Source: an uncultured Pseudomonadota bacterium
Lineage (GTDB): Bacteria; Myxococcota_A; UBA796; SXON01
NCBI GenBank assembly: GCA_903900265.1
Contig: CAIUMM010000106.1
Span: 1 to 64,000, forward strand
Reading direction: 5' to 3'
Length of the DNA stretch: 64,000 nucleotides
Under the pieces are notes generated by a model that worked only from the letters and a program-made list of their open reading frames with translations, did not search any database and was not told the DNA's origin. Both the position numbers and the translations under genes were made by a program. This document shows, one piece after another, positions 16,089 through 59,610 of the stretch; positions within the stretch are counted from its first letter, which is position 1; every line of letters begins with the position of its first letter.

Positions 16089-17045
16089 TCACAACCAGAT
16101 CTTGCAAACCAGCCGGAGCGAGCAGGCTTCGCAGGACGTCGATTTTTGCCCTGTACACCCCGAGGAAATGCCAAGATGAGCGAGCGCAAAGTCGAAGCGT
16201 GTTGGGTCCTCCGGCGCGTACCCCCGCAGTCGGTCGGTGATCTCGACTGCGGTCTTCCAATCCGCCGTTTTTCGAGCGGTCAGCCCGGTGAGCTGCGCGA
16301 TGCGCAGCACGTGCGTGTCCACCGGCATCGTCAACGTTGCAGGTGCAAGCTGGGTCCACACCCCGAGATCCGGAGCGCCGGGACGCACCATCCAGCGCAG
16401 GAACATACACCACCGCTTGCACGCGGATCCTCCCGACGGTGTCGCGAACCACGTCGCAAAATGCGGCCCCCCCGCGGCCAACGGCGCCAGCGCGCGCAGC
16501 CGGGAGATCCCGGCTTCGAGGGTGGTGAACGCCGCAGCGAGGCCCTCCGCAGCCTGCAAGCGCGCCAAAGCAACGCCAAGCGCTACAAAGTCACGCCGTG
16601 AAAACCACCGATAAACAAGGGGATCACCGGAGTCCCGCTGACCTGATGCGCAGCCCTTGCACCAGACCGCAGGCCCGCCGACCGCGTCCATCTCCGCGAA
16701 CAAGCGCTCGAGCACCGGACCAAAAAGGTCGACGCGGCCAAAAGCCAGTTGAGAGGCGTAGACCGCCGCGATCTCAACGTCTGCGAGGCGCTCGGCTGCG
16801 GCGGTCCCATCCGGCGCGGCACGCATCGCGTAGCGCTTCGGGAACCGCAGCGGGTCCCGATCGACGCGCGCGCTCAGGTCCGCAGATGCACGCACGAACG
16901 CAGCCTCCAACGCCTGATGCAACGCCCCGCCTCGCGCGGTCCGCGGGGGTGCAGCGCTACTGCGGGGCAAGGGTCGTCCCCTCCACGCGGTAGACCGTCG
17001 CGGTCTCCAACGGGCCGCCAGCCACGCCGAACGGCAGCACCCCAA
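16089..17045 (-). CDS. DUF2400 / TIGR02757 family protein (start uncertain)
   Basis: RDPLRFPKRY, WCKGCASG, KRWCMFLRWMVRPGAPDLGVW, PVDTHVLRIAQLTGLTARKTADWKTAVEIT. Confidence 0.82.
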   Translation of the reverse strand: MGCCRSAWLAARWRPRRSTAWRGRPLPRSSAAPPRTARGGALHQALEAAFVRASADLSARVDRDPLRFPKRYAMRAAPDGTAAAERLADVEIAAVYASQLAFGRVDLFGPVLERLFAEMDAVGGPAVWCKGCASGQRDSGDPLVYRWFSRRDFVALGVALARLQAAEGLAAAFTTLEAGISRLRALAPLAAGGPHFATWFATPSGGSACKRWCMFLRWMVRPGAPDLGVWTQLAPATLTMPVDTHVLRIAQLTGLTARKTADWKTAVEITDRLRGYAPEDPTRFDFALAHLGISSGCTGQKSTSCEACSLRLVCKIWL

Positions 17046-18579
17046 GGGTCTCCGAGTACAAGGAGATCGCCCGACCTGGCAGCATCACGCGAAACACAAA
17101 GTGGTCGACGCTCTCGACCCGATCCATGGGCTCCCAGGCGCTGCGCGCGAGCTCCCCGGGAGACTCGTGCTCCGCCACGGCGATCAGCGTGCCCGGAGCG
17201 AGCACCTCCCCCGGGATGTAGCGCGTCCAACCTCGCTGCTCGAGCGTGTAGCGGAAGCTCCACTCGCCCGCGAAGCGCTTGTCCGGAGGCGCGCGCTTCT
17301 CCACGCGTTCCGCCACCATCGTCGCGACCTCCCCCCCCGCACGCCCGAACCGGTAATCCGCCACGGCGAGCACCAACGCGAGCACGACCGAGAGGAGGAT
17401 GCTGACGCGCACGCCGGTCTTGCCCCCCGCCGCCTCCTCCGCAGAGCGCACCACGAGGATCGCGAGCGGCGCCGCGGCTGGCAGCAGGTACCGCGCCGAC
17501 GCGTAGTTGTGCCCCCACAGCACGCCCGCGCCCACGCCGAGCACCACCGCGCCAAGCAGCAGCGCATCGTCGCGATCGCCCTTGCGGCGACGCCGAGGCC
17601 CTGCAGCCACACCCGCGATCGCCCGCACCACGCCGATGCCGCCGATCGTCACGCACCCAAGGAGCAACCCCAGATCGCCGCTCGCAAGGCCCGCGGGACG
17701 AATCGCCACCATCGTCAACAAGCCTACCACCACGCCCGCCGCAGCGAGCGCGGGACGCACATACAGCAGGACCAGCGGCAACGGCAGGAGCGCCATCCGC
17801 GCGAGGATGCCCAACAGCCGCTCCCCCGCGGGTCCGCTGACGATGTCGCCGCGATGCGCGATCACCTCCACGATGTGGACCCGCCCGTAGGCAGCGAACA
17901 TCGCGGCCTCACCGAGCGCCGGAACCAGGAGCAGCGGCACCACAACGGAGAGCGCGTGCTGCCAGCCGAGGCGCCGCCGCAGCATCGCCAGCCCGAGATG
18001 GAGCAGCACCGGCACCACCACCATGCCCATCGAGTATTTGGTCGCGACCGCGAGGCCGAGCACCAGACCCGCGGCCCAGAGCCGCTCGCCTTCCTCCATG
18101 CCCTCCCGGTACAGCGCGAGCCCGGCGGTCACCAGCGCCACCGCCGGCAGGTCGATCATCAGCGAGTCCTGAAGCGCCAGCTGCACACAGGCCGACGACA
18201 GCCAAAGTCCGGCAGCCAACGAAGGATGTTTGGTGGTCAAGCGCGCCCAACGCGCCACGCCCCACCCGAACAGGGCTACAAACGGCACCGACGCCAAAAT
18301 CCGCGCCAACCAAACGAAAGGCGCGACGGCGTGCAGCGCGGCCAGAAACCAAAGGAACAACGGAGGATGTGCGTAGATGAAGCTGTCGGAGACCGCCGAC
18401 GCATCGGGCGTGACGTACGGCTGCCAAACCCGATGCCAGTCGTAGGGGCGCAGCCAGGACACGTGCGCGCCCAGCCACAAGTAGCTCTCTTCGTCGATCA
18501 CCGGCACCTTGCCGAGGAACGGCACGACGGAGACCAGCGCAGCCGGTACCAGCCAGCGCGCGACGCGATCGTTGCTCAC
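16957..18579 (-). CDS. GT39/ArnT-like membrane glycosyltransferase
   Basis: Multiple TM segments; VIDEESYLWLGAHVSWLRPYDWHRVWQPY near the N-terminus. Confidence 0.7.
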   Translation of the reverse strand: MSNDRVARWLVPAALVSVVPFLGKVPVIDEESYLWLGAHVSWLRPYDWHRVWQPYVTPDASAVSDSFIYAHPPLFLWFLAALHAVAPFVWLARILASVPFVALFGWGVARWARLTTKHPSLAAGLWLSSACVQLALQDSLMIDLPAVALVTAGLALYREGMEEGERLWAAGLVLGLAVATKYSMGMVVVPVLLHLGLAMLRRRLGWQHALSVVVPLLLVPALGEAAMFAAYGRVHIVEVIAHRGDIVSGPAGERLLGILARMALLPLPLVLLYVRPALAAAGVVVGLLTMVAIRPAGLASGDLGLLLGCVTIGGIGVVRAIAGVAAGPRRRRKGDRDDALLLGAVVLGVGAGVLWGHNYASARYLLPAAAPLAILVVRSAEEAAGGKTGVRVSILLSVVLALVLAVADYRFGRAGGEVATMVAERVEKRAPPDKRFAGEWSFRYTLEQRGWTRYIPGEVLAPGTLIAVAEHESPGELARSAWEPMDRVESVDHFVFRVMLPGRAISLYSETLGVLPFGVAGGPLETATVYRVEGTTLAPQ

Positions 18580-56033: not shown

Positions 56034-56193
56034 AGGGGGGCGCGGGTTTGGGCGTGGTAAAATAAACCGGTATTTATAGGGCCTGAGGGGGTTTCAAAAG
56101 AGCGCCGATCCGTATGAGAGGGTGCGGCGCGCCGGGTTCAGCAATGGCTGGCGACGACACCGCGTTCCCACCCACCCATGCCCAGGAAGTCTC

Positions 56194-56532
56194 ATGTCCA
56201 TTCTTGCCAAACGCATCGCCGATCTCTACGATCTGGAGCCGCTCTGGAAAGAGCTGGCCGTCATCGCAGAGACCTACGGCGAGCTCACCCCGTACCTGCT
56301 GCCCATGGCCGAAGGCGACGCCGAATTTATTGGGCGCGCGAAGAGGCGAGACCGAGCGATCCTCGAATTCGGCGCAGAGCGTCTCGAGGTGATCGACGCG
56401 ATGGAGGCGCTCGATCCGCACGCCATGGTCGGCGTACGAGCCGCGTGGGAGGCGTGGTGGTCGACCGCGGCACCCGTCGATTCTGCAGGGCGGAAAGACG
56501 GTTATATTAAGAACAAGGAGAGTGACACATGA
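56194..56532 (+). CDS. Hypothetical helical protein, gene 1 of coupled cassette
   Basis: MSILAKRIADLYDLEPLWKELAVIAETYG...; ATGA overlap with next gene. Confidence 0.6.
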   Translation: MSILAKRIADLYDLEPLWKELAVIAETYGELTPYLLPMAEGDAEFIGRAKRRDRAILEFGAERLEVIDAMEALDPHAMVGVRAAWEAWWSTAAPVDSAGRKDGYIKNKESDT

Positions 56533-57389
56533 TTCGCTGTATTGGAATTGACCCCGCGCCCTCGAAGGACACGGTGGTGTGTGAGGCCCTGGAGTCAGGT
56601 GACTTTGTCTTTACCGCATGGAAGCCGTATGAGGTTCGATCCCGTGTGCAGACGCTGCTCGGAGAGGCCGCGGGCAAGGGAGTGCCCCTCGTGGTGACCT
56701 GGGATGCGCCGCTCGGACTCGATCCGGGCGCGTTGCCCGGCACGCGCAACTACGCGTCGCGTCGGATCGACAGCGCTGTAACCGGCTGGGTCAAACACCT
56801 CGTCAAACCCTCGCTCACCCAGCCAGTAGCGGCCGGCGCCGTGGGCGTGGCGAACGCGTCGTCGTGCCCCCACAACCTCCTCACCCAACACGTCTGGGGC
56901 CTCCCTGTGGGCGAAGTGCCCGCGCATGGCGCCCGTCTCCTGCAGCCGGGAGAGGCAGCGAGCCAACCTTCGCCGCCGTGTGTGCTCGCAGAGGTGCATC
57001 CGGCGGTCGCGGTCGCCGCCTGGTGGCTTGAACAGGCGACCATCGAGCGTCCGATGCCGCGCTACAAGCCCGGTGGAACAGCGAACGTCGAGGCCGCGCG
57101 CGAAGGGTTGGTCCACGTCGCGAAGTTTCTGCAAACCCGATTCGGGGATGCGTTTCCCTTCGACGCCATCCTAAGCTCCAAGGGCGCGGGCGGTTCGGAT
57201 GATCGGCTCGACGCCTGGATCGCGTGGCGTCTCGCGTTCGACTGGACCCGCGGCGACGCCCGTGCTGTAGGGCCCGCGCACGGTGGCAGCTACCTGCTCC
57301 CCAATAGCGTTCTCCGGGAGAGGCTGAGTACCTACCTCTCCAAGCGCAAGAACGCAGCGCATGAACCCGAGTGGGGTGATGAGTCATGA
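56529..57389 (+). CDS. DUF429-like (RNase H-fold) protein, gene 2 of coupled cassette
   Basis: IGIDPAPSKDTVVCEA, TWDAPLGLDPG, AEVHPAVAVAAW, DDRLDAWIAWRLAF. Confidence 0.65.
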   Translation: MIRCIGIDPAPSKDTVVCEALESGDFVFTAWKPYEVRSRVQTLLGEAAGKGVPLVVTWDAPLGLDPGALPGTRNYASRRIDSAVTGWVKHLVKPSLTQPVAAGAVGVANASSCPHNLLTQHVWGLPVGEVPAHGARLLQPGEAASQPSPPCVLAEVHPAVAVAAWWLEQATIERPMPRYKPGGTANVEAAREGLVHVAKFLQTRFGDAFPFDAILSSKGAGGSDDRLDAWIAWRLAFDWTRGDARAVGPAHGGSYLLPNSVLRERLSTYLSKRKNAAHEPEWGDES

Positions 57390-58273
57390 CGCGAGCCCAA
57401 CGCTTCCTTCGCCCGCGCTTCACCGATCCGGGCATCCAGAGGTCCACCGGGCCCGAATTTCACCCCGATCGCTGGTGCGCGTCGGTTTCGGAGGTCGAGG
57501 CGCTCGTCGCACAGATACAAAGAGAGTACATCCTTCCAGACGACGCAGCCTGGGTCGTTGATGACGCCATCGAGGAGGTCGAGATGTGGCCCGCCGACAG
57601 GCTTATTGTGTTGCTCGAAGAGGCTATGGGCGAGTCCCAGTGGGTGTGGACTCCCGAGCGTGACGCGGACGCGCTCATCGCCCTCTGGAGGGGCATCGAG
57701 AGCGTGAGAGGGTTGCGTCAGCTCACCACGGAGCAACGCGGCGGCAGGCTTCGGGAGGCAAGCCTCCTCACCGCGCGTGGCTACGCGCGGATCGACGGGC
57801 GGGTGTTCGAGTTCGTACGCCCGTGGACGGCCCATGTGTGGCGTGAGCACGACTCGTGGCTGCGTCCGCCGCTCCCCACATTCACGCGCTACCTCCACCG
57901 CGGCGCGGTGCTCCCGATCGTGGATCTACCTTACCATTTTAGCTGGTCCCAGACTGAATTTCGCGAGGCGGGAGCCTGTGGCGGGGTCGACTGCTCAGCG
58001 ACCGCGGCGTCCGTATGCGTCGCGGACGAGCCTATCGGCATGGGGCACATGGCCGCGATAGAGACGCTCAGCCTCGGAAGCCTCAACGGGATTCCCGGCC
58101 CAGCGGCAGAGATCGAGGTCGACGGCGTGACGCGCGTCGTCGCCGCGGATCCTCTTTTGCGTTGGAACGGCACAGAGTTCAAGTGCGTCCCTGCGGGTGA
58201 GGGCGGAGAGCACTATGTCTGGCACCCCCTCCGCGAATACTCGTGCGTTCCTGCGGGCGAGGGTGAAGCCTGA
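57386..58273 (+). CDS. Hypothetical protein, gene 3 of coupled cassette
   Basis: MTRAQRFLRPRFTDPGIQRSTGPEFHPDRW...; ATGA overlap with previous gene; no family recognised. Confidence 0.65.
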   Translation: MTRAQRFLRPRFTDPGIQRSTGPEFHPDRWCASVSEVEALVAQIQREYILPDDAAWVVDDAIEEVEMWPADRLIVLLEEAMGESQWVWTPERDADALIALWRGIESVRGLRQLTTEQRGGRLREASLLTARGYARIDGRVFEFVRPWTAHVWREHDSWLRPPLPTFTRYLHRGAVLPIVDLPYHFSWSQTEFREAGACGGVDCSATAASVCVADEPIGMGHMAAIETLSLGSLNGIPGPAAEIEVDGVTRVVAADPLLRWNGTEFKCVPAGEGGEHYVWHPLREYSCVPAGEGEA

Positions 58274-58295
58274 GTCGTCAGGCACAGCCCACCCC

Positions 58296-58745
58296 CTACT
58301 GCCTAACCAGCTCCAAATACTTCACATCGCACTTCTCAAATCGCGTGTACGGGTTCATCGCGTTCCCGTCGTTCTGAATCACCACCTTGTCGCCTTGAAA
58401 CGCCCCTTCCACATCCACACGGGGAGACGCGCCTTTCAACCCAACAAACGTCAGGTACGTATCGCTGGAATCCTTGGAGATGTTCACGTTTCCTGCAACG
58501 CCGCCGGATTGAAACGTGAGCTTTCCGCCCTGATCGATCAGTTGGATCTGCAGGTCACACACCGACTTGTCCGCGGAGTACGTGCCTAAGTATTGCTTGA
58601 AATTCCCATCCGGCGCGACAGGCGGCACGGGCTCGACCTTCACCCCGGGCGCAGCCTCTGCTGCGGCCGGTGACGCGGGCTTATCGCCCCCACACGCAGC
58701 AAGCGCGAGAGGGAGCGCAGCGATGCACAGGAGAAGCGAGCGCAT
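58296..58745 (-). CDS. Small lipoprotein
   Basis: MRSLLLCIAALPLALAACGGDKPASP signal and lipobox. Confidence 0.72.
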   Translation of the reverse strand: MRSLLLCIAALPLALAACGGDKPASPAAAEAAPGVKVEPVPPVAPDGNFKQYLGTYSADKSVCDLQIQLIDQGGKLTFQSGGVAGNVNISKDSSDTYLTFVGLKGASPRVDVEGAFQGDKVVIQNDGNAMNPYTRFEKCDVKYLELVRQ

Positions 58746-58881
58746 GAGCGATCCGGGACGTGAGGAGGCGAGATGTAGCAGAGGCGCGCAAAGTACCCTG
58801 TCCGGCAAACCGACGCGGACCCACCAACGCCGCCCCACCAACGCCGATCCGCATAGCCACGCAGTCATCACCCAACCCAAC

Positions 58882-59610
58882 TCACCGCTCAATCCTCCCC
58901 ACGATATACGACTTGGGCTCCTGCTTCCCAAGCCCCTTTTTGATCACGTAGGGCATCGCTTTCATCGCCTCAGTCCGAACACCATCCGAGAGCTGATAGT
59001 CCACCGAGGACCCCGCGTCGGGGAGGATCGCCTCCTGAATCCCAAGCTGCCTACCGAGGTTCACGATGGCCTCTACGGTGACGAGCGCCGTTCGGCTCGA
59101 ACCGATGATGTACAGGTCCCCCGACGCGTCCGTGCCCACCAAGGTTCGGTAATCCGGCTCTTTGGAGTGCGTTTTTTTGAAAAGCTTGGTGTTTACCTTG
59201 CCGTCATTGATGCCGTAGATGAGCGACTGTGTGCTGTAGGTGGGGCTCTTCGGCGCGACTTGGGCCGATACAAAGGCTACCCCACCGCGTACAAAAAAGT
59301 AGCCCCCGCCCTTCACGCGCTTGGAGGCCCGCTTGCCATTGATGATCAGCTCGCCGATCGGACCCCGCGCGTCAAAAAAGTTGCTGTTGAGGTAGATATC
59401 CGCGTCGGCAGGGCGCTTCCGGCTCACCGAGAACGCCACCGTCCCGGTCGGCACCTTCAACACGTTCATCACCGCCAAGCCGATGCGCTCCTGCGAGAGC
59501 ACAGGAACCGCGCCCGTCGCCTTGGGTTTGGTCGCGCAGGCTCGAAACCCGACCAGCACGAGCAGGGCCAAGCCTGCGGAGCACGCAGCGATCCAAGCGC
59601 TGCGGCTCAT
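58882..59610 (-). CDS. Phosphodiester glycosidase (NAGPA)-like protein
   Basis: IYLNSNFFDARGPIGELIINGK, GGYFFVRGG, ILPDAGSSVDYQLSDG. Confidence 0.65.
   Translation of the reverse strand: MSRSAWIAACSAGLALLVLVGFRACATKPKATGAVPVLSQERIGLAVMNVLKVPTGTVAFSVSRKRPADADIYLNSNFFDARGPIGELIINGKRASKRVKGGGYFFVRGGVAFVSAQVAPKSPTYSTQSLIYGINDGKVNTKLFKKTHSKEPDYRTLVGTDASGDLYIIGSSRTALVTVEAIVNLGRQLGIQEAILPDAGSSVDYQLSDGVRTEAMKAMPYVIKKGLGKQEPKSYIVGRIER

Follow-up and report, generated by a model that had tools for sequence, protein, structure and literature searches.

A three-gene cassette around a DUF429 protein at an insertion site in a bacterial genome: a putative accessory defence or DNA-conflict module

Three plus-strand genes around a DUF429-like protein, joined by overlapping stop and start codons, raise the question of what they do, how they came to lie where they do, and whether all three belong to one function. 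They occupy positions 56194 to 58273 of the window, the 64,000-nucleotide stretch of bacterial DNA analysed here. The evidence set out below identifies the cassette as an accessory and as yet uncharacterised variant within a known nuclease-like family. Sequence comparison further suggests a probable role as an accessory module in defence or DNA conflict.

Coding evidence and the inserted block

The cassette consists of gene 1 (56194-56532), gene 2 (56529-57389) and gene 3 (57386-58273), encoding proteins of 112, 286 and 295 amino acids, respectively. Both junctions are ATGA overlaps: the ATG of gene 2 (56529-56531) overlaps the TGA of gene 1 (56530-56532), and the ATG of gene 3 (57386-57388) overlaps the TGA of gene 2 (57387-57389). 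The three plus-strand reading frames coupled by two such overlaps, as an earlier note had described them, were thus reproduced in all their positions and lengths. Open frames are thin proof of coding at 65% GC, and spurious antisense reading frames are abundant in the window. The coding status of the three genes rests instead on three other types of evidence. First, all three were picked as genes by codon log-odds, using a model trained on neighbouring genes of the host. Second, comparison of gene 2 with its copy in G009, a genome of the same family as the window genome, gave a dN of 0.34 and a dS of 1.36, and gene 1 showed a dN/dS of about 0.41 against a relative in the same genome (locus L027). 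Third, gene 3 shares 54-56% protein identity with two fragments in G009, over 32-33 amino acids each. With a dN/dS of about 0.25 relative to the G009 copy, gene 2 is under purifying selection.

In two genomes of the same genus, the DUF547 gene found upstream of the cassette and the histone-deacetylase-like gene found downstream are neighbours separated by less than 0.6 kb, and the cassette is absent. Because these flanking genes lie side by side there, the cassette represents an insertion when compared with those genomes, and it was gained as a block. Comparison with these genomes delimits the inserted accessory block to 56034-59606. In addition to the cassette, it contains a small lipoprotein-like gene (58296-58856, minus strand; GC3 of 0.71) and a phosphodiester-glycosidase-like gene assigned by Pfam to NAGPA (PF09992; 58882-59595, minus strand), which was not found in the 12 relatives searched. 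The lipoprotein-like gene is probably not functionally linked to the cassette, and the same probably holds for the NAGPA-like gene. The GC3 values of genes 1 to 3 (0.74-0.78) are lower than those of the upstream neighbours (0.82-0.89), which is consistent with acquisition from elsewhere.

A conserved region that serves as a putative leader or promoter-operator precedes gene 1 (56060-56123, plus strand) and was delineated by blastn, alignment and pattern search. Its 40-base core (56084-56123) shares 85% identity with that of the G009 copy by blastn and alignment, and among the 15 genomes searched the leader pattern occurred at zero mismatches only at the window and G009 cassettes. In the cassette region there was no match to Rfam or a known RNA family and no terminator-like site; one promoter-like site was found there, which is close to the number expected by chance.

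The three proteins

Gene 2 (56529-57389, plus strand; 286 amino acids) encodes a predicted RNase H-fold nuclease, as suggested by Pfam, alignment, an AF2 model and fold matches. In the Pfam scan it scored 34.7 bits over residues 6-246, above the curated cut-off of 23 for DUF429 (PF04250; COG2410, COG4328, COG4923). DUF429 was the only family detected, and no fused RelA/SpoT synthetase domain was present. A published survey has placed DUF429 in the RNase H-like superfamily, grouping it in one clade with RuvC, YqgF and Tex, and describes conserved residues that are candidates for an active site (PMC3985635). The resemblance of gene 2 to DUF429, read from its letters by the earlier note, and the RNase H-like nature of that family therefore stand, by the Pfam cut-off and by the published fold assignment; the four motifs on which the resemblance had been based, GIDPAP, TWDAPLGL, EVHPA and DDRLDAW, were all found in gene 2. 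The candidate active-site residues are D8, D59, E155 and D224/D225/D228. In an alignment of six subfamily members, D8, E155, D224, D225 and D228 are invariant (6/6), while D59 is kept in five and is a G in the relative at L016. Acidic residues thus lie where an RNase H-like site would be expected, as in other members of the family.

An AF2 model of gene 2, built with six sequences, begins with a strand-strand-strand-helix-strand arrangement with a pLDDT of about 80, within a whole model of low confidence (mean pLDDT 59), and this order of elements fits the RNase H-like core. The best fold matches in two structure libraries include a terminase nuclease, Tex and an integrase core, with a best E value of 4e-3 and low TM scores, none of them significant individually. 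A nuclease (RNase H) fold is likely for gene 2. Matches to restin domains among PDB sequences were taken as chance. Gene 2 falls within a GIDPA[PS] subfamily; the profile of this subfamily misses other DUF429 members of the same class, and these members lack a gene 1 within 1.5 kb.

Gene 1 (56194-56532, plus strand; 112 amino acids) encodes the candidate partner protein. It is predicted to be all-helical and carries the motifs YGxxTP[YF]LLP and WxxWW, which are conserved in an alignment of three sequences. Its AF2 model contains four helices (mean pLDDT 74) and gave no fold match in the structure search. Neither gene 1 nor gene 3 has a match in Pfam, NCBIfam, PADLOC or PHROGs, in agreement with the earlier statement that the two belong to no recognised family. 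A match of gene 1 to MutS2 among PDB sequences (E 0.024) was taken as chance, and weak matches in genomes G038 and G352 were not accepted. Confident relatives of gene 1 were found in 3 of the 379 genomes of the phylum, the window's own counted.

The possible dependence of gene 2 on gene 1 is suggested by RelZ (MS_RHII-RSD) of Mycobacterium smegmatis, the only enzymatically studied DUF429 member in the literature searched. RelZ cleaves RNA-DNA hybrids as well as R-loops (PMC4429107, PMC7591505), and its nuclease domain needs a partner domain of the same chain, being inactive without it (PMC7591505). By analogy, gene 2 may need gene 1, and the likeness would consist in a DUF429 nuclease that depends on a partner, which for gene 2 is a prediction. 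The two would differ in the nature of the partner: in RelZ it is a fused (p)ppGpp synthetase domain, whereas at the window this part would fall to a small helical protein made as a separate chain and unrelated in sequence.

Gene 3 (57386-58273, plus strand; 295 amino acids) is known only from the window genome and from decayed pieces in G009, where one weak partial match was also found; no intact relative was detected. Its involvement in a mechanism shared by all three genes is unsupported for this reason. As part of the best overall explanation, and with the same tentative standing, gene 3 may be a lineage-specific third component of the cassette. A match in genome G112 was located on the antisense strand of an apparent sulfotransferase gene and was rejected. 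At the C-terminus of gene 3 (58170-58273) there is a short duplication, in which CVPAGEG occurs twice; the G009 fragment has one copy.

Relatives of the cassette and their neighbours

The gene 2 subfamily occurs in 6 of the 379 genomes across the phylum, and relatives of the cassette were absent from all four same-genus genomes searched. No relatives were found in searches of plasmids, phages and viral contigs. A scan of genome contigs matched the G009 copy only; since it used N-terminal patterns only, it is a weak test of absence outside the phylum.

G009 is the sole genome with a close gene 2 relative among 58 related genomes. Its gene 2 is intact and 58% identical to that of the window, while its gene 1 has lost the start region and is frameshifted, and its gene 3 has suffered a large deletion that left two short pieces in different frames. 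This cassette begins directly after the 3' end of an ISCR2-related transposase, and the ISCR-like end is present in three copies within 5 kb. In the stretch concerned (L007, contig C227, 12400-18010), different cargo lies between the three ends, the decayed cassette included. A lower-GC gene of the same stretch (16887-17444) encodes a separate protein weakly similar to gene 3. In starting right after a transposase end, the G009 copy is similar to cassettes mobilised by ISCR/IS91 elements, whereas neither a transposase nor a repeated end was recognised beside the window copy. In the published survey, mobility of DUF429 was considered unlikely (PMC3985635); the subfamily of the window gene 2 departs from that picture, as its members are found at an insertion, next to ISCR-like ends and close to integrases.

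At an unrelated locus of genome G050 (L019), gene 1 comes after gene 2, the two being coupled by an ATGA overlap in an order reversed relative to the window. The cassette is thus conserved elsewhere in part, as a coupled pair of genes 1 and 2. The tight coupling, from which the earlier note had drawn a joint function, recurs to this extent for genes 1 and 2, whose partnership is thereby supported, while gene 3 has no intact relative; the fixed stoichiometry of three products that the note had proposed is not supported, as intact recurrence is limited to the pair.

These observations bear on the reading of the cassette as cargo, according to which unrelated orphan genes were assembled by ISCR-like transposition with no selected joint function and the DUF429 gene is an incidental passenger. 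The position of the G009 cassette between three copies of ISCR-like 3' ends, the nearly orphan status of gene 3 and the decay of genes 1 and 3 in G009 would all agree with such a history. However, genes 1 and 2 are paired by an ATGA overlap in separate loci and in both orders, gene 2 is under purifying selection, and the leader is conserved together with the cassette, so that an assembly of this type appears improbable.

Each of the two genes is also found without the other. In five loci, gene 2 occurs without a recognised gene 1 in the stretch read (L016, L017, L018, L084 and L085), although at L084 the contig starts 263 bases upstream of the gene 2 relative, which limits the absence there. 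At that locus (G590, contig C97, 264-1401) the gene 2 relative is followed after 4 bases by a gene of 142 amino acids without a Pfam family, which is perhaps an alternative partner. Conversely, the second gene 1 relative in G009 (L027) has no gene 2; it overlaps, and is in this way coupled to, a gene without a known family, and it adjoins AAA, McrB-like and McrC genes. It is the last of three short ATGA-joined genes (contig C252, 9283-10423), the first two of which have no Pfam match.

Small coupled genes, a mobile setting and reversed gene order are all known from toxin-antitoxin modules. These features, the reversal being that of L019, would suit the addiction-type module envisaged earlier, with gene 2 encoding a toxic nuclease and the antidote coming from gene 1 or gene 3. 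The comparison of loci does not support this proposal, which is very unlikely: in G009 gene 2 is intact beside its decayed partners, and either gene of the pair can persist by itself, gene 2 at the five other loci where no gene 1 was recognised and gene 1 at L027.

Several of the relatives lie among restriction and mobile genes. In genome G372 (L085, contig C87, 4544-13163), a UvrD-like helicase, a gene 2 relative, HsdR, HsdM and HsdS form a single run; the DUF429-type gene lies 12 bases before HsdR. The pair at L019 is located by HsdR (type I restriction), a YhcG nuclease, an HTH gene and an integrase. HSDR_N and PLD-domain proteins are encoded next to the relative at L018, and an integrase next to that at L017. 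No restriction or mobile genes were recognised in the stretch examined at L016 and L084, and the L016 relative lies among ordinary metabolic genes. Restriction genes adjoin 4 of the 8 relative loci, against 0 of 46 control stretches (461 kb) with a relative of the restriction and integrase proteins of the test loci, a comparison that is small and partly circular, as its queries were drawn from the test loci and favour the test set. The controls comprised six windows from the same genomes, in which the commonest 25 Pfam families listed point to ordinary genes, and forty further stretches. Given the origin of these queries, the finding that relatives lie near restriction genes or mobile elements more often than control windows is suggestive. 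Mobility, the pairing of genes 1 and 2 and a tendency towards restriction islands are supported. On recurrence near defence islands, which had been put forward as a check, restriction genes lie beside the pair at L019 and beside half of the relative loci; the three-gene set has no intact counterpart, and no restriction gene was recognised beside the window copy.

Proposed function and its main rival

The leading explanation, held tentatively and at a little less than an even chance, is that the cassette is an accessory operon gained by horizontal transfer, whose DUF429 RNase H-fold nuclease, helical partner (gene 1) and gene 3 most likely aid restriction systems against invading DNA. According to this model, gene 2 would cut RNA-DNA hybrids, R-loops or branched DNA through a metal-dependent acidic site. 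Gene 1 would bind gene 2 and stabilise or target it, and gene 3 would add sensing or control. The module would move with mobile DNA, most likely helping restriction systems.

Type I restriction-modification operons with accessory genes are comparable to the setting at L085, where a gene 2 relative lies within such a run, and at L019, where the pair lies beside HsdR. The window cassette differs: a scan of the genes surrounding it brought up no restriction gene, and hence no HsdR, HsdM or HsdS. This difference counts against a restriction-helper role, as do the restriction of such neighbours to 4 of 8 relative loci, the lack of recognised restriction or mobile genes at L016 and L084, and the low mean pLDDT of the gene 2 model with its individually non-significant structure matches. 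The cassette also differs from known anti-phage systems, as none of the three proteins matches a model listed in PADLOC at E values up to 1.

The main rival is an accessory genome-maintenance nuclease, in which gene 2 would remove R-loops or repair DNA in replication stress in the manner of RelZ, with gene 1 as a cofactor, and the proximity to restriction genes would reflect shared mobile islands only. It is in keeping with the action of RelZ on R-loops under UV stress, with a window copy that has no recognised defence neighbours, with the metabolic surroundings of L016, and with a distant DUF429 gene (L086) that adjoins SbcC/SbcD-looking genes, judged as such by reading their sequences, with no profile match. 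A maintenance function is less easily reconciled with the patchy spread of the subfamily over the phylum and its absence from every same-genus genome searched, or with the relative that lies inside the type I restriction operon of L085. It is considered unlikely, yet it is the alternative that weighs most against the leading restriction-helper reading.

A more specific form of the defence reading can also be stated. Genes 1 and 2 could constitute an undescribed nuclease module of two proteins, with an RNase H fold, that acts together with restriction systems of types I and IV. Its targets would be R-loops or branched intermediates of invading DNA, and its third components, gene 3 among them, would be swappable. 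This version is rather doubtful as it stands.

For the family, a recurring partner together with a tendency to lie near restriction genes would provide DUF429 with a function open to test, and similar modules elsewhere could be found by way of the gene 1 family.
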